A DNA stretch of 38,371 nucleotides from Myxococcota bacterium (GTDB taxonomy: Bacteria > Myxococcota_A > UBA9042 > DTJE01): assembly GCA_029975745.1 (NCBI GenBank), contig JARKOL010000163.1, forward strand, positions 1-38,371, given 5' to 3'. The translations under genes and the position numbers were made by a program. The notes under the pieces were generated by a model. The model did no database searches, had not been told where the DNA came from, and saw only the letters and a program-made list of their open reading frames with translations. Shown here piece after piece: positions 9,998 through 31,485 of the stretch (its first letter is position 1; every line of letters begins with the position of its first letter).

Positions 9998-12232
9998 CTA
10001 GCGTAATCGCGGGAATGACGCACGCGGCGGCGTGAAGACCCACCACTCGCCGCCCATCCAGTCGCGTTCGTTGCCGTTGCCCGCCTGCACCGTCGCCACG
10101 ACCCGAACCAGGTAGCGCGCCGAGGGCTCCAGTGCATCCAGCATGGCGTCTTCGTCGGTCGATCCGCCCTGCGCGCCCAGGGTCACAATGACTTCCTGGC
10201 CCTCGGCAATCGGGCCCAGGTCGAGGGCGTGCGGCAGATCCGGCAGCGTGGTGCCCCAGCGCAATTGCACCGCGGAGGCGTCGGTATTCAGCGTGAACGT
10301 CACGCGGACTCGCCCGTCCGGAAGCGGCGTCGTGGCCAGCGGACCGATGACGGCCCGGGGCGGCGGGGCCGCGATCGTTCCCTCGGGGACCGCGCTGGCG
10401 GTCGCGTCCAGGAACGACTGGATGCGGGACGGCCCCGCCGGGGACGCGGCACCAAGCCCCGCATCGATCATCGTCTGTCGCACCAGGGCCAACTCCTCCC
10501 TGGCCCAGGCGGCCCAGGGGCCCAGGTCCGGGTCGGGAGCGGCACCGCCCAGGGTTCGGGCCCGCTGGGCCCACAGGAACAGGTCGATGGCCCGCCATGT
10601 CCGGGCCGCGAACGCCTGGTGGCGCAGCCGGAATTCCAGGTCCGCCCGATCCTCGGGGCGCAGCACGTCGGGGCTTGCCGCGACCCAGTCCAGGAAGGTG
10701 ATCAGGTCCGCGGCCGCAAGGTCCACCGCCTCGGAACCTTCCTGCCACAAGTCCAATACCGTGTCGCGGTCCGGCGATCGGATGCGGTCGTACACCGATT
10801 GCCATGCCGGATCCCATTTGGGCATGTTGCCCCGGCTGAACAGTTCGCCGAACGCGGCCTTGGACGGGATGTCCGTCCCCTTCTCCAGCGCCCAGATGCC
10901 CAGCGCATAGTGGGACTTCAGCCGAATCGGGAACGTGTTCTCGAGGATCTGGCGCAGCAGGTCCGCATCGTCGCCGGGCGGCAGGTCGTAGCGGTCCTGA
11001 AGGAATCCCTCCCAGATCGTCTTCAACGGCGTTTCCGGGTTGTCCACGAAGGCGGACAGGGCGCGCAGATTGACCTCGTTCGGGGTCCCCAGCGAGCGGT
11101 TGCTGCCGCGTTCGATCCGGACGACGTAGCCGATGCCGCGGTTGGCCCATGCGTGCTGCATGCGGAAGCGGAAGTACCCCGGGCTGCAGAAGGGCAGTCG
11201 CGATGCGCCGTAGTACTCGCCGCCCACGTCCAGCTCCAGGATGGACGGATGCGGCCCCACCTGACCCACCGTGGGGTCATGGGGGTTGTAGGGTTGCCAG
11301 TCGCCCACGTCGGACTTGTGCATCCCGACGAAGTCCAGTCCGCGGGAGGCTGCGAATCCGTACGAGTGCCACGGAATTTCCGCCGGTTCGTGCAGGAAGA
11401 CGCGGGCCACCATCTCCATCCCGCGGACCGCCAGAACCTTGCCCAGTGCCTCGGTGATCATCCGGATGCGGACATCGTTCGGCGGAGCCTCGAAGGGGTT
11501 GTCCCACTGGTCCATGCACCAGTCGCAACTGCATGCCGTGAACCAGGGCGACATCGGGGCCGACCCGAACATCAGCACGACGCCGTCCACCCGCGGGATC
11601 CGATCCAGGGCGGCATTCCACGCGGCAGCCCGGTCCATCCAGACCGTGTCGCCGGGCTCGTAGCACACGTCCAGCCCGGTGCCGCTGAACTCGTGAACCC
11701 AGATGAACGCCTTCATCCCACGCTGGTGCGCGGCGTCGATGGCGTCGTTCAGGGTCTGCACGCGGGTGGTCGTGGCGGCATCGTTGCCCAGCAGATCCTC
11801 GAAGTTCATCACCAGGTCGTGCGAAAGCTGGATGTGGTTGACCCGGTAGGCCGACGCGGCCTCCAGCGCCTCCATCACCTTCTCGGGGTTCGAATCCAGC
11901 AGGATCCAGCCGCGCACGGGCGAGTAGTTGGCGCGGTCGAACTCCCAGGGTTCCGCGTCGGTGGCATCGAGGGCGTCGTCGGGCCCCGGATCGGGCGCAT
12001 CCGTGGTCGCGTCCTCACCAGGCCCCTCGTCGCCGCCGCCTGGGTCCAGAACGGTGTCGAGCCAAGGATCGCCGGGCAGGTCGCTCGGAAGGCCCGGGTC
12101 CATCATGGCGTCCGTCCCGGCGTCGTGCCTCGCGTCGCCGCCGCCCGGGGCGGCGCCCTGGCCGCCGCCACCACAGGCGGCCAGGGCCGCGGCGGTCGCC
12201 AGCATCAGGAACGAGTCGCGAATGCGCGTCAT
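9998..12232 (-). CDS. Lipoprotein with TIM-barrel glycoside-hydrolase-like domain (family uncertain) and D/P/G-rich tether
   Basis: Lipobox 'AALAACGGGG', long D/P/G-rich linker, 'ASAYRVNHIQLSHDLVMNFEDLL...AIDAAHQRGMKAFIWVHEF...CSCDWCMDQ', C-terminal fibronectin-like segment. Confidence 0.6.
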   Translation of the reverse strand: MTRIRDSFLMLATAAALAACGGGGQGAAPGGGDARHDAGTDAMMDPGLPSDLPGDPWLDTVLDPGGGDEGPGEDATTDAPDPGPDDALDATDAEPWEFDRANYSPVRGWILLDSNPEKVMEALEAASAYRVNHIQLSHDLVMNFEDLLGNDAATTTRVQTLNDAIDAAHQRGMKAFIWVHEFSGTGLDVCYEPGDTVWMDRAAAWNAALDRIPRVDGVVLMFGSAPMSPWFTACSCDWCMDQWDNPFEAPPNDVRIRMITEALGKVLAVRGMEMVARVFLHEPAEIPWHSYGFAASRGLDFVGMHKSDVGDWQPYNPHDPTVGQVGPHPSILELDVGGEYYGASRLPFCSPGYFRFRMQHAWANRGIGYVVRIERGSNRSLGTPNEVNLRALSAFVDNPETPLKTIWEGFLQDRYDLPPGDDADLLRQILENTFPIRLKSHYALGIWALEKGTDIPSKAAFGELFSRGNMPKWDPAWQSVYDRIRSPDRDTVLDLWQEGSEAVDLAAADLITFLDWVAASPDVLRPEDRADLEFRLRHQAFAARTWRAIDLFLWAQRARTLGGAAPDPDLGPWAAWAREELALVRQTMIDAGLGAASPAGPSRIQSFLDATASAVPEGTIAAPPPRAVIGPLATTPLPDGRVRVTFTLNTDASAVQLRWGTTLPDLPHALDLGPIAEGQEVIVTLGAQGGSTDEDAMLDALEPSARYLVRVVATVQAGNGNERDWMGGEWWVFTPPRASFPRLR

Positions 12233-22655: not shown

Positions 22656-23246
22656 CTAGCCGACCGGCTCGGCCACTGCGCGCGCCTTCTTCTCGACGGC
22701 GAAGTTGATCGCGGAGTATCCCTCGATGGCAGCGGTGGTCATGACCAGGCGGATGACCTCGAACGCGACGTTCTGGTCCGCCTGAATCACGATCTGCTTG
22801 GACTCCTCAAGCCACTTCTTGGCCTTCTCGGGGTCCGCCGGCATCGGGTGGTTGCTCTGGTATGCATCGTGCGCCGCCTTGAGCACCTTGGAAAGCTCGG
22901 GCAGCTTCAGGTCGGGGAAGTTCTTCTCGTTCACGGCCGCGGTCTTGATGACCTCGGCGCCCTCGAAGAGAACGACGTTCGCCGAAATGCCGATCATGGG
23001 GTAGCGCTCGAGCGTGCGGCCCGAATACGCCTTCGGCAACTGGATGTCGTCCTGCTGCAGGAGGATGTCGCCAGTGGCCGAGAACGTGATCAGCAGGAAG
23101 ACGACCAGAATGACGAACATGTCGATCATGGGCACCAGGTTCAGCGAGAAAATCATTCCCCGCTTCGAACCGCGGCTACCCACCTTCAGCGATCTCATGT
23201 GCTTCACGCTGGAGCCAATCCGGCTACCTGGTGCCTTAATGGACAT
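22656..23246 (-). CDS. ExbD/TolR-family biopolymer transport protein (second copy)
   Basis: 'GMIFSLNLVPMIDMFVILVVFLLITFSATGDILLQQDDIQLPKA'. Confidence 0.9.
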   Translation of the reverse strand: MSIKAPGSRIGSSVKHMRSLKVGSRGSKRGMIFSLNLVPMIDMFVILVVFLLITFSATGDILLQQDDIQLPKAYSGRTLERYPMIGISANVVLFEGAEVIKTAAVNEKNFPDLKLPELSKVLKAAHDAYQSNHPMPADPEKAKKWLEESKQIVIQADQNVAFEVIRLVMTTAAIEGYSAINFAVEKKARAVAEPVG

Positions 23247-23297: not shown

Positions 23298-23777
23298 TCA
23301 CATTCCCATCTCGTTTCTGGCCGCATCCACGTCGGCCACGACCAGGTTCTCCAGCCCCACGACCATGCATGCGTCCATGGTCGCAATCATGTCCTTGTAG
23401 GGGATGGTGTCCTCGGGCGCCACGATGACCTTCTGCTCCTTGCTCAACTCGAGGGACTTCAGGTGCTCCTCGAGCTTCTCGGGGAGGAAGCCGCCTTCGG
23501 CCTTCGGAATCGAGACCGGCTGGCTGTCGGCGAACTTCACCGTGTAACCCTTGGAATCGACCATGATCGTCAGGCGCTTCGGGGGCTCCGTCTGCTCCTG
23601 CTTCGGCTGCGGCTTCTGAACCGACTGATCGACATTGATCCGACCGGTCTGGGTCCAAACGGCGGTCATCAGCAGGAACGTGACGCAGACGATCATCAGG
23701 TCGATCATCGGGACCAGATTCAAGTCGATAACCTGGGACTTCTTTTTTCCGGTTCCGACTTCTTGTACGCCGCCCAT
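23298..23777 (-). CDS. ExbD/TolR-family biopolymer transport protein (first copy)
   Basis: 'SQVIDLNLVPMIDLMIVCVTFLLMTAVWTQTGRINVDQS'. Confidence 0.9.
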   Translation of the reverse strand: MGGVQEVGTGKKKSQVIDLNLVPMIDLMIVCVTFLLMTAVWTQTGRINVDQSVQKPQPKQEQTEPPKRLTIMVDSKGYTVKFADSQPVSIPKAEGGFLPEKLEEHLKSLELSKEQKVIVAPEDTIPYKDMIATMDACMVVGLENLVVADVDAARNEMGM

Positions 23778-23857: not shown

Positions 23858-24508
23858 TCAGGCGGACTTGCCGTCCTGGAACTTGTCACGGTTGGCCGTG
23901 ATGAGGTTCAGAACGGACACGGTCGTCTCGTTGATGTCGTCCACGAGCTGCTGCGACTTCGCCTGGAAGACCGCGTACGACAGGGCCGAGGCGATGGCGA
24001 CGGCCAGACCGAACGCCGTGTTGTACATGGCTTCGGAAATACCGCCGGCCAGCTCGGTGGCCTTCGACGACGCATCCGCCTCGGCGACGGCGCCGAACGC
24101 GCGGATCAGGCCGAAGATGGTGCCCAGCAGACCCATGAGGACTGCCGCGTTACCGATAACGGCCAGGAAGCCGACGCGCTTCTCGATCTTGGGCAGTTCG
24201 CGCAGCGCGGCTTCGTCCATCGCGGCCTGCACGGCCTCGTCGCTCTCGGTGGCCTTCATCAGGCCCGCCTGGAGGACCTTGGCCAGCGGGAACTTCGAGC
24301 TGGAGCAGACCTTGAGGGCCTGACGCAGATCGCCCACCAGGATGTACTTGGTGAGGATGCGCACGAAGTCTTCCTTGTTGGGGTTCGCCTGGAAGTACAG
24401 CACGACGGTCCGCTCGATGATGACGCCGAACATGAAAATGCCCGTCGCCAAGATCACGAACATGTTGTGGCCGCCCGCTTCGAAGGCTGTTGCGATGAAC
24501 TCGAACAT
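23858..24508 (-). CDS. MotA/TolQ/ExbB proton channel family protein
   Basis: ATG with GAGAGGAG RBS; 'IEKRVGFLAVIGNAAVLMGLLGTIFGLIRAF...LAGGISEAMYNTAFGLAVAIASALSYAVF'. Confidence 0.92.
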   Translation of the reverse strand: MFEFIATAFEAGGHNMFVILATGIFMFGVIIERTVVLYFQANPNKEDFVRILTKYILVGDLRQALKVCSSSKFPLAKVLQAGLMKATESDEAVQAAMDEAALRELPKIEKRVGFLAVIGNAAVLMGLLGTIFGLIRAFGAVAEADASSKATELAGGISEAMYNTAFGLAVAIASALSYAVFQAKSQQLVDDINETTVSVLNLITANRDKFQDGKSA

Positions 24509-24636
24509 CTTGTGCACTCCTCTCTTAACTAGCCAACTGCCTTGCTGGAACGTCCCCACCGAAACGTCCGGTGGCGAATCCCAATCCCCTTCGGACCGGC
24601 TTCGCCCCCCGCCCAACTTGAACAGGGTGCGCCAGA

Positions 24637-24771: not shown

Positions 24772-26538
24772 TCAGCCCGGGTTGAACACGAACGGCCACT
24801 GCACGACGCAGACACCACTTTCGGGTTTCTGGAAGCGCATTGCGCGAATCACGCGCAGCACGCACTGCTCGACCGCGGCATTTCCCAGGGTGGACGAGGC
24901 GATCGACGCGCCCTCGACCTTGCCTTCCTGGTCGATGGTCCAGCGGATGGTCGTCTTGCCGGCCAGGGACTCGTGGATCTGCAACTGGGCTTCGTAGCAG
25001 GCCCGGATGGCGCCGGCACGCCGCATCACGTTGGTGCGGATGTCGTCCTTCTTGCAGAAGCCGCTGGAGGCGCCCGAGTCGAGCTTCATCTGGCCGACTT
25101 TCTTGGTGCCCTTCTTGCCGAGGCCGGCGCGCATGCCCATGCCGCCACCGGTGTCCACGCGACCCAGGCCGTGGATCCGGCCGTAGCCGCCCGTGCCGCC
25201 GCCGCCGGCGCCGGTGCCCTTGAAGCCCATGCCGCCGGCGCCGTAGCCGACCTGGAGTTCCGAGCCGGTGCCCGCCATGGCGACGGCCATGCGGTTGTCG
25301 AAGGCATCGACGTTGTCGCTGAGGATCGAGGAGATCGCGCTGCTGCGGCCGAGCTGGTTCGACAGCACGTTCGCCAGACCGATCTTCTTGGGGTCGATCT
25401 TGTTGGCCAGGGCGCCGTCACGATTCGGGACCTTGCTTTCCAGGGTCGGGTCCTTGTCGGGGTCGCCGAACTTGCCTTCCTCGCCCTCGGCGCGCTTGCC
25501 GACCGAGTCGTCGTCGGACTCGGTGATTTCCAGGATGTCCTCGTCCTTTTCCATCGCGATGTTGGCCTCGACCTTCATCACGCGCTTCTCGGACTTGTGC
25601 TTGACGACGGCGCCCGCGGGGTTCCACATGAACTGCGAAACCACCCAGAAGGAGATGAGGAAGAAGGCCGACGCGACGGTCGCGGCGACGAAGGTGCCGT
25701 CCATCGAGGCGGCGGTGCTGCGGCCGATGATGACGTCGGGCCGGACGAACTGGAAGAACAGCTCGACCTTGTTGTCGAAGCTCAGGACGCCCCAGTCGCC
25801 CTTGCGCAGCGGCACGTATGTTTCGGCGCCGGCATCGGACAGGTGCTTCTTGACCCACTCGCGCAGAGGGGCCACGACGCCGTCCATGTTCAGGCGGCCG
25901 TTCATTTCGCGGGACAGGGCGACCGAGTAGTTGCCCTTGCGATCGACCTTGAACAGGGTCAGCGAGCCGGACGGCGAGGCGTTCGGCACGACGAAGTCGC
26001 TGCGCAGCGCGTCGCCGACGATGATGTCGCGGCGCTCGGTGAAGGTCGTCTCCTTGATCAGCTTGCCGTCCCACAGCAGGGCCACGCGCATCAGGCGGTC
26101 ATCGGGGCCGAGCATCGGCTGGGTCACCAGGGTCCACACGAATCCGACGACCATGACCACGATGCCCAGGAACGCCAGGTGATATCCGTAGAACATCGCG
26201 ATGCTGGTGGTTTCGGCCATGGCCTTCGCGGCGATCGCCTCGTTGATCGTGGCCAGGATCAGGAACGGGGTCAGGAACAGGAAGATGAACGACGCGGACG
26301 TGGCCAGCAGGCCCAGCAGCGCGACGAACTTCTTGCGGTTGACGAACAGCGCCACGACCGCGAGGGCGAGGGCCGCGGCCAGCAGCACGATGGCTGCGGC
26401 ACCGGTCCACCACTGGATGCCCTGGTACATCGAGGGGGCGGCGAAACCGACGACATCGGCATCGACCCAGTCGATCGCCAGGGATCCGACGATCCCCAGC
26501 AAGGCTCCGGCAATCGCAATCAGGAGTCCGATGACCAT
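24772..26538 (-). CDS. AgmX/PglI C-terminal-domain (TonB-like) membrane protein
   Basis: Multiple N-terminal TM segments; Gly-rich 'GYGAGGMGFKGTGAGGGGTGGYGRIHGLGRVDTGGGMG'; C-terminal 'IRACYEAQLQIHESLAGKTTIRWTIDQEGKVEGASIASSTLGNAAVEQCVLRVIRAMRFQKPESGVCVVQWPFVF'. Confidence 0.8.
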   Translation of the reverse strand: MVIGLLIAIAGALLGIVGSLAIDWVDADVVGFAAPSMYQGIQWWTGAAAIVLLAAALALAVVALFVNRKKFVALLGLLATSASFIFLFLTPFLILATINEAIAAKAMAETTSIAMFYGYHLAFLGIVVMVVGFVWTLVTQPMLGPDDRLMRVALLWDGKLIKETTFTERRDIIVGDALRSDFVVPNASPSGSLTLFKVDRKGNYSVALSREMNGRLNMDGVVAPLREWVKKHLSDAGAETYVPLRKGDWGVLSFDNKVELFFQFVRPDVIIGRSTAASMDGTFVAATVASAFFLISFWVVSQFMWNPAGAVVKHKSEKRVMKVEANIAMEKDEDILEITESDDDSVGKRAEGEEGKFGDPDKDPTLESKVPNRDGALANKIDPKKIGLANVLSNQLGRSSAISSILSDNVDAFDNRMAVAMAGTGSELQVGYGAGGMGFKGTGAGGGGTGGYGRIHGLGRVDTGGGMGMRAGLGKKGTKKVGQMKLDSGASSGFCKKDDIRTNVMRRAGAIRACYEAQLQIHESLAGKTTIRWTIDQEGKVEGASIASSTLGNAAVEQCVLRVIRAMRFQKPESGVCVVQWPFVFNPG

Positions 26539-26660
26539 CTGCAAGCCCTCGCATTCAAGCGGAAACACAACGCGTCGCGCACGGCCCGTCGGCCCGGGGG
26601 CCACGATCGGCGGAAGCGTGTCCCGCGGGTCGGCAGGAACCGGGTCCGCGAAGACCCTGG

Positions 26661-26690
26661 TATTCTGCAAAGGCATCGCCCATGCGTCAA
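26661..26690 (-). promoter_or_regulatory. Candidate promoter (TTGACG-N18-AGAATA) for the AgmX-like gene
   Basis: Minus strand hexamers in the intergenic gap between the TPR gene stop (26738) and the AgmX-like start (26538). Confidence 0.4.
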
Positions 26691-26737
26691 CAGGATTTTT
26701 CAAACGAAAAGGGGGCGGATTGACGGATATCCGGGGC

Positions 26738-27454
26738 TCAGTTCGCAGGGTTGCCCCGGATCGGCGCACCCATTGGGCCGCCACCCGCACGCCACCGGGC
26801 CGGATAGAGGCTGCGGGCCTGCCCCTCGCGCATCAGGGCGGATGCCTCTTCCGGCCGTCCGGTCTGGCGCAGCAACTGGGCCAGGCGGAATCGAGCCGCC
26901 TGGACTTCGGGATCGCGGGCAAGCAGGTTGCGGTACTCCAGAATCGCCGCGCCGACGCGTCCCGAGCGCTCGAACGCCAGCCCCCTGGCCATCGCCAGGC
27001 GTCGGGACAGCGTGTCCAGGGGCACGCGAACCGTGTCGGAGCCGGTGTCGGGCGGCAGGGGCAGCAGGTCGGCGGCGGGGTCGGGCGTATCGCGCTCCAG
27101 GGCCAGCAGCAGCGAGATCAGCGCCAGGTAGTCGCCGGTGGGTTCCAGGGTGCGAACCCGCGCCAGCGCCTGGTCGATCTGGGCGGCGGGCGCCCGCATC
27201 GCGATGGACGCGACGGTGGACTTGAGGACCGGAATCCACCATGTCGGGAATTGCGCCAGCACGTCGCGATATGCGGCCTGCGCGGCGTAGAGGTTTCCGG
27301 AATGCAGGGCCGAGTCCGCCTCGGACAGCCGCGTCCTGGCGGCCGCGATCGGATCCTCCTGGGAGGTGGCAAGGCCGGGCGCGAGGATCGATACGAACAG
27401 CGGAATCGCAAGGGCGCGAAGGTTCGATGCGCAGGCCGGCGCCATCGGAATCAA
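26738..27454 (-). CDS. Secreted tetratricopeptide-type repeat protein (last gene of the MCE operon)
   Basis: Signal peptide; 'ALHSGNLYAAQAAYRDVLAQFP', 'AILEYRNLLARDPEVQAARFRLAQLLRQTGRPEEA'. ATG overlaps the mlaD stop (ATGA). Confidence 0.65.
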   Translation of the reverse strand: MIPMAPACASNLRALAIPLFVSILAPGLATSQEDPIAAARTRLSEADSALHSGNLYAAQAAYRDVLAQFPTWWIPVLKSTVASIAMRAPAAQIDQALARVRTLEPTGDYLALISLLLALERDTPDPAADLLPLPPDTGSDTVRVPLDTLSRRLAMARGLAFERSGRVGAAILEYRNLLARDPEVQAARFRLAQLLRQTGRPEEASALMREGQARSLYPARWRAGGGPMGAPIRGNPAN

Positions 27455-28446
27455 TCCTTCAGAAGCAGCTTCCAGGGGTGCCGCTTCAGATCCTTCATTA
27501 TGGCGATCAGATCGTCATAGATTTCGCGGTCGGCCAGCAGGGCGCCGATGGTGCCCTTGCCATCGACGGCATTGCGGCTGAGGGTTCGCACGTCGCCCAG
27601 GATTCCGGTGATGCCCTGGCGACCGTCACTGACGACGGCCCGGGCGTCGGTCACCAGGCCGTGGCCTTCGGTGAGGGTGCGGTCCAGGTTGTCCGCGATG
27701 GCCGGCAGACGGGCGACCACGGGGCGGACACCCCGGTCCAGCGTGTCGGACAGCGAACGCAGCGATGCGACGATACCGCGCAGGTCGCCTCCGTCGCCGG
27801 TGCCGATGGCCAGCGCCGCACTGACGCGGTTCAGGTTGCCGACGATCTGGCGGATGTCGTCGCGGTTCTCGCCGACGACCTCGTCCACCTGGTTCGCCAG
27901 TCGGCCGATGCCGTCGATGGCGTCCCGGATGCCCTGCTGGTTGTCCTGCAACAGCGCCGACACGCGGGCAATCGTCTCGTTGGCATTGGCGCCCATCAAT
28001 TCGAAGCGCATCGGGCTGACGCCGTCCACGACCTGGCCCGGCTTCAGGGGCAGCGCCTCCGGGGTGCCGGGATCGATCTCGACGTACTTCTCGCCCAGGA
28101 TGCCCAGGGTCGTGATATGGAGCCGGGAATCCTGGCGCAGCATCACGAAGGAGGCGCTGTCGATGGTCAGCCGGGCCCGAACCTGGACGGGCTTGTTGTC
28201 GCGCTCCGGGTCGCGGCGTCCCCCCCACAATTCGACCGCGGTCACCTTGCCCACGGTGACGCCGCTGATCTTGACCGGCGCGCCCGTCTTCAGGTCGCCG
28301 CTGTTGGGGAAATCCACCATCAGCGGACTGCGATCCCGGCACGAGAAATCGCCCAGAAGGATGAGGAAGGCAACCAGAAGCAGGACGGCGGACAGGATCA
28401 GCGCGCCGACCTTGACTTCCATCGATCGCAGGGGACGGTCGGCCAT
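27451..28446 (-). CDS. MCE-domain (MlaD-family) substrate-binding protein
   Basis: N-terminal TM, 'GDLKTGAPVKISGVTVGKVTAVELWGG...RLHITTLGILGEKYVEIDPG', long helical C-terminus. Confidence 0.92.
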   Translation of the reverse strand: MADRPLRSMEVKVGALILSAVLLLVAFLILLGDFSCRDRSPLMVDFPNSGDLKTGAPVKISGVTVGKVTAVELWGGRRDPERDNKPVQVRARLTIDSASFVMLRQDSRLHITTLGILGEKYVEIDPGTPEALPLKPGQVVDGVSPMRFELMGANANETIARVSALLQDNQQGIRDAIDGIGRLANQVDEVVGENRDDIRQIVGNLNRVSAALAIGTGDGGDLRGIVASLRSLSDTLDRGVRPVVARLPAIADNLDRTLTEGHGLVTDARAVVSDGRQGITGILGDVRTLSRNAVDGKGTIGALLADREIYDDLIAIMKDLKRHPWKLLLKD

Positions 28447-28448
28447 GG

Positions 28449-29192
28449 TCACGTCTCCATCGGCCCGGCGGGATCGCCTCGGACGAACTGGCGAACGATC
28501 GGGTCGTCCGCGTCGCGGAAAGCCGCGGGCGGTCCGTCAAGCCGGATGCGCCCCTTATAAAGAAAAACGATCCGGTCGGCAACGCCGAAGATGGACCGCA
28601 AATCGTGGCTGACGACGATGACGGTCTTTCGCATGCGGTGGGCCAGGTCCCGGATCATGGCATCGATGTTCTCGCTGGCGACGATGTCCAGTCCGGTCGT
28701 CGGCTCGTCCAGGATGGCGCAGTCGGGGGACAAGGTCAGCGAGCGCGCGATGGCCACGCGCTTGCGCTCGGACGGGCCGACCTCGGCGGGCATCAGGTCG
28801 GCCTTGGAATCCATGTCGACGCGCTCCAGGAAGTCGCGGGCGGACTGGCGGGCGGCCTCGCGGGACAGTCCCTGGTGCTTGCGGATGGGCAGGGCGACGT
28901 TGTCCAGCAGCGACATCGAGTCGAACAGGGTCGGGTGCTGGAAGACCAGGGCGTACCGCTTGCGGATGTCCCGCCACCCGGCCTCGTTCAGGTCGGTGAC
29001 GTCCTGTCCGTCGATGCGGATACGACCGGCATCGGGTCGCAGCAGACCCACGGCATGCTTGACCAGGACGCTCTTGCCCGTGCCGGAACTGCCGATGATG
29101 TAGGTGATCTCGCGGTCCTTCAGCGTCAGATCGATGTGGTCCAGCACCGGATGGGCGTCGAATCGCTTGGAGACGCCGACGTACTCGATCAT
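28449..29192 (-). CDS. MlaF-type ABC ATPase 1 with degenerate signature motif (VGPSE)
   Basis: Walker A 'GSSGTGKS', Walker B 'CAILDEPTTGLD', H-loop 'VVSHD'; signature position reads 'MPAEVGPSERKRVAIARSL'. Confidence 0.92.
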   Translation of the reverse strand: MIEYVGVSKRFDAHPVLDHIDLTLKDREITYIIGSSGTGKSVLVKHAVGLLRPDAGRIRIDGQDVTDLNEAGWRDIRKRYALVFQHPTLFDSMSLLDNVALPIRKHQGLSREAARQSARDFLERVDMDSKADLMPAEVGPSERKRVAIARSLTLSPDCAILDEPTTGLDIVASENIDAMIRDLAHRMRKTVIVVSHDLRSIFGVADRIVFLYKGRIRLDGPPAAFRDADDPIVRQFVRGDPAGPMET

Positions 29193-29196
29193 CCCG

Positions 29197-29943
29197 TCAC
29201 CATCCAGCCAGGTAGGCCAGGGTCGAGATCAGGAAGTCCAGCATGATCACGACGAACGATGCGTTGACCACGGCGCGGGTGGTGGCCCAGCCGACGCCCT
29301 CCGACCCGCCGGTCGCGCGAAATCCGGAATCCGCCGCCAGGATCGGGATGGCCGTCCCGAACGCCAGGCACTTGAAGACGCCGACCCACACGTCCTTGGG
29401 CGCGGTGCCCGCCAGCGACAGGAAGGTTCGCAACTGGATGTCGAAGCGCAGGGTGCCCATCAAGGTGCCGGCGGCGATGGCGACCAGGACCCCGAAGACC
29501 CACAGCACGACCATCATGATCAGCGTGGCCAGGAAGCGCGGCACGACCAGGTACTCGATCGGGTCCGTGTTCGTGACCTTCATGGCCTCGATCTGGTCCG
29601 TCACCGTCATCGACCCGAGCTCGGCGGCAATGCCGGCGCCGACGCGCGTCGCCAGCATCAGCGCGACAATCGTGGGCCCGAACGTCCGGATCATGGTGCC
29701 GATGAAGAACCGGCCCACCTGGGTCAGGTCGGGCAGCACCTTCTGGGCCTGGAACGCCCCCTGGTACACCAGGATCAGGCCCAGGAACGCCAGGGTCACC
29801 GCGATGAAGACGACGGACTGGTTGCCGATCTGGAACATGGCATCGACGACGCGGCGGCGGGCGCGCGCGGCCGACGGCAGGGCGCGAACGGTGCGCTTCA
29901 GAAGAAACAGCGGCGATGCGATGGCCGTGGGGATTCCTACCAT
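29197..29943 (-). CDS. MlaE-type permease 1
   Basis: 'TMIRTFGPTIVALMLATRVGAGIAAELGSMTVTDQIEAMKVTNTDPIEYLVVPRFLATLIMMVVL'. Confidence 0.93.
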   Translation of the reverse strand: MVGIPTAIASPLFLLKRTVRALPSAARARRRVVDAMFQIGNQSVVFIAVTLAFLGLILVYQGAFQAQKVLPDLTQVGRFFIGTMIRTFGPTIVALMLATRVGAGIAAELGSMTVTDQIEAMKVTNTDPIEYLVVPRFLATLIMMVVLWVFGVLVAIAAGTLMGTLRFDIQLRTFLSLAGTAPKDVWVGVFKCLAFGTAIPILAADSGFRATGGSEGVGWATTRAVVNASFVVIMLDFLISTLAYLAGW

Positions 29944-30761
29944 GTCCACAGCACCGTCACGAAGAAGTTGACGACGAAGATCGCGATCGCGGCCGTGACG
30001 ACCGAATGGTTGACCGCGCGACCGACGCCCCGGGCACCTCCGGTGACACCCAGGCCCCAGTGGCACGAAACGATGGCGATGCCGCCGCCGAAGAAGAACG
30101 CCTTGACCAGGCCCATGACGAATTCGTCCACCAGGCGGCTTTCCAGGACCCCCTGCCAGTACACGCGCATATCGATGCCCAGAAGCGCGCTGCATGCCAC
30201 GGCGCCACCCGCCAGGGCGAAGATGTCGCCGATGCAGGTCAGCAGGACCAGCATCACGATCATGGCCAGGAACCTGGGGACGACGAGGTACGCGATCGGG
30301 TCGATGCCCAGCACCCGCAACGCATCGACCTGGTTGGTGACGACCATCGTGCCCAGCTCGGCGGTGTTGTTCGCGCCGACGCGGCCCGAGAACATGAGCC
30401 CGATCAGGACGGGCCCGACCTCGCTGAAGATCGCGGTTCCGGCGGCCCAGCCCACGATGCTGGTGGCGCCGGTCCCCTTCACGAAGTTGCCCGACGAGAT
30501 GACCATCAGGGCGCCGACGAACGTCGCGGTGGCCACGACGACGCCGACGGAACGGACGCCGACCTTGAAGAGCTGGCGCACGGTCTCGTCGTAGTCGAAG
30601 GCGCCCCGCGCGAAGGTGGACCGAAGGATGCGGACCTGCAGCACGGACATGCCGCCGACCACGGCGCAGGCGGCCAGGATGGCGCGCCCCACGTCGGCCA
30701 GGAAGCCGGCCCGGGGCGGGTTGCCCGGCGCCGCGAGTTCAGGTTGCATCGTTTCGGACAT
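29937..30761 (-). CDS. MlaE-type permease 2
   Basis: 'AIFSEVGPVLIGLMFSGRVGANNTAELGTMVVTNQVDALRVLGIDPIAYLVVPRFLAMIVMLVLLT'. Confidence 0.93.
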   Translation of the reverse strand: MSETMQPELAAPGNPPRAGFLADVGRAILAACAVVGGMSVLQVRILRSTFARGAFDYDETVRQLFKVGVRSVGVVVATATFVGALMVISSGNFVKGTGATSIVGWAAGTAIFSEVGPVLIGLMFSGRVGANNTAELGTMVVTNQVDALRVLGIDPIAYLVVPRFLAMIVMLVLLTCIGDIFALAGGAVACSALLGIDMRVYWQGVLESRLVDEFVMGLVKAFFFGGGIAIVSCHWGLGVTGGARGVGRAVNHSVVTAAIAIFVVNFFVTVLWTW

Positions 30762-31485
30762 CCAGGAAGACCTTCACCCTGGGGTCGGGACATGCCCGCC
30801 CGTCGGCCAGCGAGCCACTGAATATCACGCTTCCACCATGGACCACATGGAAATCGGTACACAGCAGGGCCAGGCGATCGACGTCGTGGGAGGCGACGAC
30901 CACCGTGCAGCCGGTCCGTCGCTGGTGTTCCCCGATCAACTGGAATATCCGGGAGGTGGTCACCGGATCCAGGCCGCCGCTGGGGTCGTCGAACAGCAGC
31001 AGATCCGGCTGGCCGATGGCGGCGCGCGCGACGGCGACACGTCGCTGCATCCCGCCCGATAGTGCCTGGACCGGCTGATCGCCCTGGCCCGCCAGGCGCA
31101 CCGAGTCCAGTGCCGCGGCAACCCGCTGGGAAAGGACGTCGGGCGGGGGAGGGGAGCGGTCCTGCGCCAGGGGGAATGCGACGTTTTCCGCGACCGACAG
31201 GAAATCGAACAGGGCAAGGTTCTGGAACTGCACGCCGATGCGGGACCGGACCGCGCGCAACTCGTCGGGGGCGTCGTGAGGCACCGGGTCGCCGAACAGG
31301 CGCACCTCGCCGTCGTTCGGCGCAAGCAAGGTTGCCAGAAGCTTCAGGACCAGCGTCTTGCCGGAGCCGCCGGGACCGACCAGGGCGTGAACGCGCCCCG
31401 GGGCCAGCGACAGGGTCACCTGATCCAGGACGCGGGTGCCGGACAAGGTCAGCGAGACGTCCAGGATCTGGGCGACATGATCCAC
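30739..31485 (-). CDS. MlaF-type ABC ATPase 2 with Walker-B Glu to Asp (DDP)
   Basis: GTG start with GGAG RBS; Walker A 'GPGGSGKT', signature 'ALSGGMQRRVAVARA', Walker B 'LLLFDDPSGGLD', H-loop 'VVASHD'. Confidence 0.92.
   Translation of the reverse strand: MDHVAQILDVSLTLSGTRVLDQVTLSLAPGRVHALVGPGGSGKTLVLKLLATLLAPNDGEVRLFGDPVPHDAPDELRAVRSRIGVQFQNLALFDFLSVAENVAFPLAQDRSPPPPDVLSQRVAAALDSVRLAGQGDQPVQALSGGMQRRVAVARAAIGQPDLLLFDDPSGGLDPVTTSRIFQLIGEHQRRTGCTVVVASHDVDRLALLCTDFHVVHGGSVIFSGSLADGRACPDPRVKVFLDVRNDAT

Follow-up and report, generated by a model that had tools for sequence, protein, structure and literature searches.

A predicted MCE-type ABC transporter with two permeases and a paired, asymmetric ATPase in Myxococcota

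A 38,371-nucleotide stretch of DNA from a Myxococcota bacterium (contig JARKOL010000163.1 of GenBank assembly GCA_029975745.1; hereafter, the window) carries an operon for a transporter of the MCE/Mla kind that has two permease genes and two ATPase genes. Judged from their sequences, these genes very probably encode an obligate heterotetrameric ATP-binding cassette (ABC) core, MlaE1/MlaE2 plus ATPase1/ATPase2, in which one ATP site is hydrolytic and the other degenerate, under an MlaD-like ring.

In an ABC dimer, each ATP is held between the Walker A and Walker B motifs of one subunit and the signature motif of its partner. Where the structure of an MCE complex is known, as for MlaFEDB and Mce1, the ATPase dimer is symmetric; the reason for degenerate ATP sites is still debated even among the exporters known to have them. 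A preliminary description of the window, made without database searches, proposed an asymmetric heterodimeric ATPase and knew of no described MCE transporter of this design. Our literature searches, which covered open-licence papers, likewise gave no description of an MCE/Mla transporter with a heterodimeric ATPase or of a Myxococcus MlaE system of this type, a negative that is weak evidence in itself. The comparative analysis points to the same asymmetric reading, and widens it to include loss of the switch His as an alternative catalytic lesion.

Results

Gene content and ATP-site motifs

The draft genome that contains the window comprises 4.26 Mb in 408 contigs, the window being on contig C39. 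On its minus strand, from 31485 down to 27451, the genes run in the order ATPase2-MlaE2-MlaE1-ATPase1-MlaD and a TPR gene comes next, with neighbors that overlap or nearly abut; genes for a GltG-like protein, a TolQ/ExbB-like protein and two ExbD/TolR-like proteins follow, to 22656. Gene coordinates and Pfam assignments agree with the order from ATPase2 to TPR given in the preliminary description; its range of 27451-31485 encloses the five genes from ATPase2 to MlaD, and leaves the TPR gene (27454-26738) outside. Pfam placed ABC_tran on both ATPases, MlaE on both permeases and MlaD on the MCE protein. The best NCBIfam match of ATPase2 was the MlaF model, though below the cut-off of that model. 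The five genes are:

30739..31485, minus strand: ATPase2, MlaF-like, 248 aa, GTG start (Pfam ABC_tran; motifs checked at base level)
29937..30761, minus strand: MlaE2 permease, 274 aa, in its own clade (support 100) (Pfam MlaE PF02405, E=3.3e-65)
29197..29943, minus strand: MlaE1 permease, 248 aa, in its own clade (support 100) (Pfam MlaE PF02405, E=6.6e-56)
28449..29192, minus strand: ATPase1, MlaF-like, 247 aa (Pfam ABC_tran; motifs; structure model)
27451..28452, minus strand: MlaD-like MCE protein, 333 aa (Pfam MlaD PF02470, E=4.5e-19)

The ATP-site motifs were all checked at base level, and every one named in the preliminary description (VGPSE, LSGGM, DDP, DEP and GSSGTGKS included) was present as described:

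29070-29093, minus strand: ATPase1 Walker A, GSSGTGKS, intact
28767-28781, minus strand: ATPase1 signature, VGPSE, degenerate (LSGGQ/M expected)
28701-28709, minus strand: ATPase1 Walker B, DEP, intact
28602-28610, minus strand: ATPase1 switch-His motif, SHD, intact
31354-31377, minus strand: ATPase2 Walker A, GPGGSGKT
31048-31062, minus strand: ATPase2 signature, LSGGM, intact
30982-30990, minus strand: ATPase2 Walker B, DDP, catalytic Glu replaced by Asp
30883-30891, minus strand: ATPase2 switch-His motif, SHD, intact

The composite site formed by the Walker side of ATPase1 and the LSGGM of ATPase2 is intact, and that formed by the Walker side of ATPase2 and the signature of ATPase1 is broken twice. 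Exactly one site would be intact in a heterodimer and none in a homodimer of ATPase1 or of ATPase2, which favors the heterodimer.

Lesion pattern across orthologues

The lesions are one-sided across orthologues, in sets of 87 ATPase1 sequences (the canonical MlaF L112 and the tandem ABC protein L061 left out) and 78 ATPase2 sequences. The first signature Gly was absent from all 87 ATPase1 sequences and the signature Ser from 84; the Walker B Glu and the switch His were kept in 87/87. In ATPase2 the signature Ser-Gly was kept in 77/78, and a catalytic lesion was found in 77/78, this being Glu to Asp in 55 or His to Ser or Asn, with Glu intact, in 22. The combined catalytic states were Asp with His (54 sequences), Asp with Gln (1), Glu with Ser (21), Glu with Asn (1) and Glu with His (1, from locus L158). 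In a large group made up of Polyangiaceae, Kofleriaceae and others, the DEP of ATPase2 is retained and the switch His is gone (SSD or SNE). Lineages that kept the Walker B Glu have thus lost the switch His, and the asymmetry is conserved by two alternative lesions. The layout of a degenerate site, which pairs a catalytic lesion in one nucleotide-binding domain (NBD) with a deviant signature of its partner at a single composite site, was seen in 77 of 78 ATPase2 and all 87 ATPase1 sequences. The proposal that the two lesions of the window share one composite site, leaving one consensus site, gains support from this pattern. The co-conservation of a VGPSE-type signature with DDP, put forward as a check on that proposal, held as far as the one-sided asymmetry is concerned; in its strict form it was rejected, since DEP lineages exist in which the switch His was lost instead.

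Both members of the ATPase pair were found on one contig in 57 cases. None of these pairs was fully consensus in both members, so that operons with LSGGQ and DEP in both ATPases, named in advance as evidence to the contrary, were not seen among them. The lesions lay in the ATPase1 signature and in the ATPase2 Walker B or switch His, and the complementary site was untouched except for one ATPase2 signature, LAGGL. Pseudogene decay was rejected as an explanation because the complementary motifs are strictly retained across the phylum. An assembly or sequencing artefact in VGPSE or DDP, a concern raised at the outset, was rejected: tens of independent genomes show the same pattern, isolates such as the cultured Lujinxingia vulgaris among them.

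Background among ABC proteins of the same genome

As a background control, a Pfam search of the genome of the window gave 30 ABC loci, with 23 complete ABC domains. Among these 23, the Walker B Glu was lost in ATPase2 only, and the signature Ser was lost only in ATPase1 and in one unrelated ABC protein (LPGGI), whose neighbor lacks the switch His. At locus L228 (contig C122 of the same genome, G000, about 10125-11506) two ABC domains adjoin, one with LSGGM and a Ser in place of the switch His, the other with LPGGI and an intact His; this is possibly another asymmetric pair. Tandem two-domain MlaF-like ABC proteins were also observed (L214:3547-5292, L215:5173-6942, L216:5100-6923 and L217:4603-7182), with LSGGM, DEP and GLD in the N-terminal half and (I/V)SNG(Q/E) and a GQD D-loop in the C-terminal half. 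No MlaE was found adjoining these four, and the one placed on the tree (L061, the same as L217) groups with canonical MlaF, not with ATPase1 or ATPase2.

Canonical LSGGM/DEP MlaF proteins are also present at other loci of the genome. One of the two operon ATPases might accordingly be imagined as a regulator without motor function, in a role like that of MlaB, for which no gene was annotated by Pfam in the operon, with the working dimer formed together with the canonical MlaF. Such an arrangement is extremely improbable: Walker A and a full-length ABC domain are kept in both ATPases, their motif sets are exactly complementary, and both are conserved with the two permeases across Myxococcota.

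Distribution and separate lineages

The system is widespread in Myxococcota and not a one-off. In related genomes, ATPase1 orthologues turned up throughout the family, order and class. Several genomes of family f1 share the ten-gene order, and other families retain ATPase2-MlaE2-MlaE1-ATPase1-MlaD. With the MlaE2 alignment as the query, public genomes gave 533 relatives; the best 80 of these 533 loci were mostly titled Myxococcales, Myxococcota or "Deltaproteobacteria", and they included isolates of Lujinxingia and Polyangium. A partly dispersed arrangement was observed in three Polyangium isolates (L181, L182 and L189), in which MlaE2 and MlaE1 are adjacent, ATPase1 is on the opposite strand, and ATPase2 is not within the fetched flank.

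In the trees, ATPase1 and ATPase2 each formed one clade (support 99), apart from the canonical MlaF of the same genomes, and MlaE1 and MlaE2 each formed one clade (support 100), apart from canonical MlaE. That the two ATPase genes belong to different clades and carry complementary lesions argues against a homodimer of a single gene product. The use of an ATPase hidden Markov model alone as a marker of the system was rejected, since L112, a canonical MlaF of the same genome, has a score of 315 bits, near that of true ATPase1; the system is better told from its canonical relatives by the permeases. Among 153 Myxococcota genomes, both permeases were found in 70, MlaE1 alone in none, only weak matches to the MlaE2 model in 5 (224-232 bits, close to the scores of canonical MlaE) and neither in 78; these genomes are related, so that the Fisher value overstates independence, and what matters in this sample is the absence of one-sided permease cases at confident scores.

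These data bear on the idea that the operon encodes two transporters, each with its own permease and ATPase homodimer (MlaE1 with ATPase1, MlaE2 with ATPase2), and that the two perhaps have an MlaD ring in common. The structurally characterized Mla and Mce systems do have an ATPase homodimer (PMC7790496, PMC9882608), and family f6 has its genes spread over three loci, with ATPase1 beside MlaD, ATPase2 beside MlaE2 (split in genome L095) and MlaE1 alone. Even there the genes are kept as a set, and neither permease occurs by itself at confident scores in the 153 genomes. Moreover, an ATPase1 homodimer would contain two broken signatures and an ATPase2 homodimer two broken catalytic sides, yet the complementary motifs are strictly kept. 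We consider two separate transporters very unlikely.

Structure models

The ATPase1 model had a mean predicted local distance difference test (pLDDT) score of 91, and its best PDB match was MlaF of MlaFEDB (6xbd; template modeling (TM) score 0.94), with MceG of Mce1 (8fed) close behind. In E. coli, a C-terminal extension of MlaF clamps the MlaF dimer (PMC7367683). In a profile comparison the ATPase1 profile ended about 17 residues short of the end of the 269-residue MlaF chain, and ATPase1 thus lacks the end of this extension. The MlaD-like protein has a single transmembrane helix, a single MCE domain at about residues 30-145 and a long helical C-terminal part; its model is confident only to about residue 145, the helical tail being of low confidence, and its closest PDB folds were Mce1 subunits and MlaD.

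Neighboring genes

Downstream of the MlaD gene come five more genes, whose order is conserved in the family of the window:

26738..27454, minus strand: TPR protein, 4-base overlap with the MlaD gene; same place in family relatives (Pfam, gene order)
24772..26790, minus strand: GltG-like protein ending in an AgmX/PglI C-terminal domain; its actual start is probably at about 26676 (NCBIfam gliding_GltG below cut-off, myxo_SS_tail above cut-off; order conserved in f1)
23858..24616, minus strand: TolQ/ExbB-like proton channel subunit (Pfam MotA_ExbB; conserved order)
23298..23777, minus strand: ExbD/TolR-like protein a (Pfam ExbD; conserved order)
22656..23246, minus strand: ExbD/TolR-like protein b (Pfam ExbD; conserved order)

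The order from the MCE genes through TPR, GltG, TolQ/ExbB and the two ExbD genes (26790-22656, minus strand, for the part from the GltG-like gene on) is shared with L025, L029, L031, L033 and L064; L028 is cut off by a contig end, and the TPR gene was not detected in L032 and L034. This conserved order ties an MCE transporter to a proton-driven machine of the Tol/Agl type. Just upstream of ATPase2, about 20 bases from its start, lies a gene for a Nitro_FeMo-Co domain protein (31991-31506, minus strand).

Discussion

The arrangement that best fits these observations is a heterotetramer in which labor would be divided as in the heterodimeric exporters. At the predicted hydrolytic site, ATPase1 would give Walker A, the Walker B Glu and the switch His, and ATPase2 would give LSGGM; at the degenerate site, the nucleotide side of ATPase2, with its Asp (or, in other lineages, its lost switch His), would face the broken signature of ATPase1. 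The degenerate site may bind ATP and hold the NBDs together while the consensus site hydrolyzes, so that one ATP would be spent per cycle to move lipid, the presumed substrate, in either direction between the inner membrane and the MCE ring. The long helical tails of the MlaD-like ring would probably serve as a periplasmic conduit, and, more speculatively, the occluded ATP perhaps substitutes for the missing C-terminal clamp.

Several observations weigh against this heterotetramer. The complex is a prediction from comparative evidence, and the structure models are of single chains. The signature Ser is kept in three ATPase1 sequences (LSDGM twice, LSAGQ once). The ATPase2 of L158 (8079-8882) has both Glu and His, with a GRD D-loop, and lies inside the DDP clade; no ATPase1 was found on its contig. 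One genome (G041, 84% complete) has ATPase1, MlaD and MlaE1 with no MlaE2 detected. Furthermore, the changes from Glu to Asp and from His to Ser each represent one or few evolutionary events. The Asp state forms one clade of 55 rows (support 86), and many independent losses were rejected, as about two changes on the tree suffice to explain the Walker B states and about two the switch-His states; row counts are for this reason not independent trials, and an independent-pairs test was without power. The weight of the evidence rests on the one-sidedness of the lesions, not on the number of independent losses. Finally, changes at signature position 3 alone (LSKGF, FSRGM, LSHGM and LSAGE) are common in ordinary ABC proteins of the genome, which makes the loss of Ser the telling part of the ATPase1 signature.

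The frequency of such position-3 variants, together with the tolerance of some transporters to single lesions at a degenerate site (PMC7756269), could also suit a heterodimer in which both sites hydrolyze and the Asp or missing switch His and the deviant signature merely tune the rate. We regard this as very unlikely, because the signature Ser and Gly are lost jointly with a catalytic residue at one site, and because the catalytic lesion is of one kind or the other depending on the lineage, which suggests that what has been kept is the loss of hydrolysis and not a given residue.

If a single site does hydrolyze, the conserved asymmetry of an MCE core, reached through two alternative catalytic lesions, would be an independent case of a degenerate site, on a permease fold unrelated to that of the exporters. 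Whether lipid transport can run on one ATP per cycle thereby becomes testable, as does the question whether the asymmetry sets direction or keeps the ATPases clamped; Lujinxingia and Polyangium offer cultured organisms for this. In the family of the window, the transporter might also be coupled, physically or functionally, to the proton-driven TolQ/ExbD/GltG-like machine of the ten-gene cluster. That coupling is doubtful, and the conserved order is its evidence; if true, one envelope-spanning apparatus would move lipid between the membranes on both ATP, at a single hydrolytic site, and the proton gradient.

Comparison with known systems

The E. coli MlaFEDB complex is MlaF2E2D6B2 (PMC7790496). 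Like this type VIII ABC transporter, the present system has permeases of the MlaE family, MlaF-type ATPases (33% identity and a TM score of 0.94 for ATPase1) and an MCE-domain MlaD. Unlike MlaFEDB, in which MlaF and MlaE are each encoded by one gene and form homodimers with two consensus sites, it has two ATPases and two permeases, and ATPase1 is without the end of the clamping extension. No MlaB or MlaC gene is annotated in the operon here; among 13 related genomes, MlaC was present in 12, lying in the genome of the window on another contig, and MlaA was not detected in any of the 13.

In mycobacterial Mce1, the permease is a YrbE1A/YrbE1B heterodimer and the ATPase an MceG homodimer (PMC9882608, PMC10517005). 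The predicted permease heterodimer and the long helical tails of the MCE subunit resemble this system (YrbE1A/YrbE1B, MceG, Mce1A-F), which also provided the top-ranked solved fold for the MlaD-like protein. In Mce1, however, the one ATPase, MceG, is encoded outside the mce operon, and there are six different Mce proteins versus one MlaD-like protein here.

In type IV exporters, the transmembrane domain is fused to the NBD, and the permease fold is unrelated to MlaE. That fusion is not found here, where separate NBD proteins would act on separate MlaE permeases under an MCE ring. The likeness is to the lesion layout of the degenerate-site exporters (TM287/288, and also BmrCD, TAP and CFTR), here read from sequence: in TM287/288 one half has an Asp in its Walker B, and the partner's signature at that site is deviant (PMC5216877, PMC7756269). 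In heterodimeric exporters (TM287/288, PMC5216877; others reviewed in PMC7756269) hydrolysis takes place at the consensus site, and the degenerate site, with ATP bound, keeps the NBDs together. This likeness to the TM287/288 family is one of mechanism, not of membership. By its MlaE-family permeases, the MCE-domain MlaD subunit in its operon and its MlaF/MceG-type ATPases, the system belongs to the MCE/Mla kind, and what is new in it is the paired, asymmetric ATPase.

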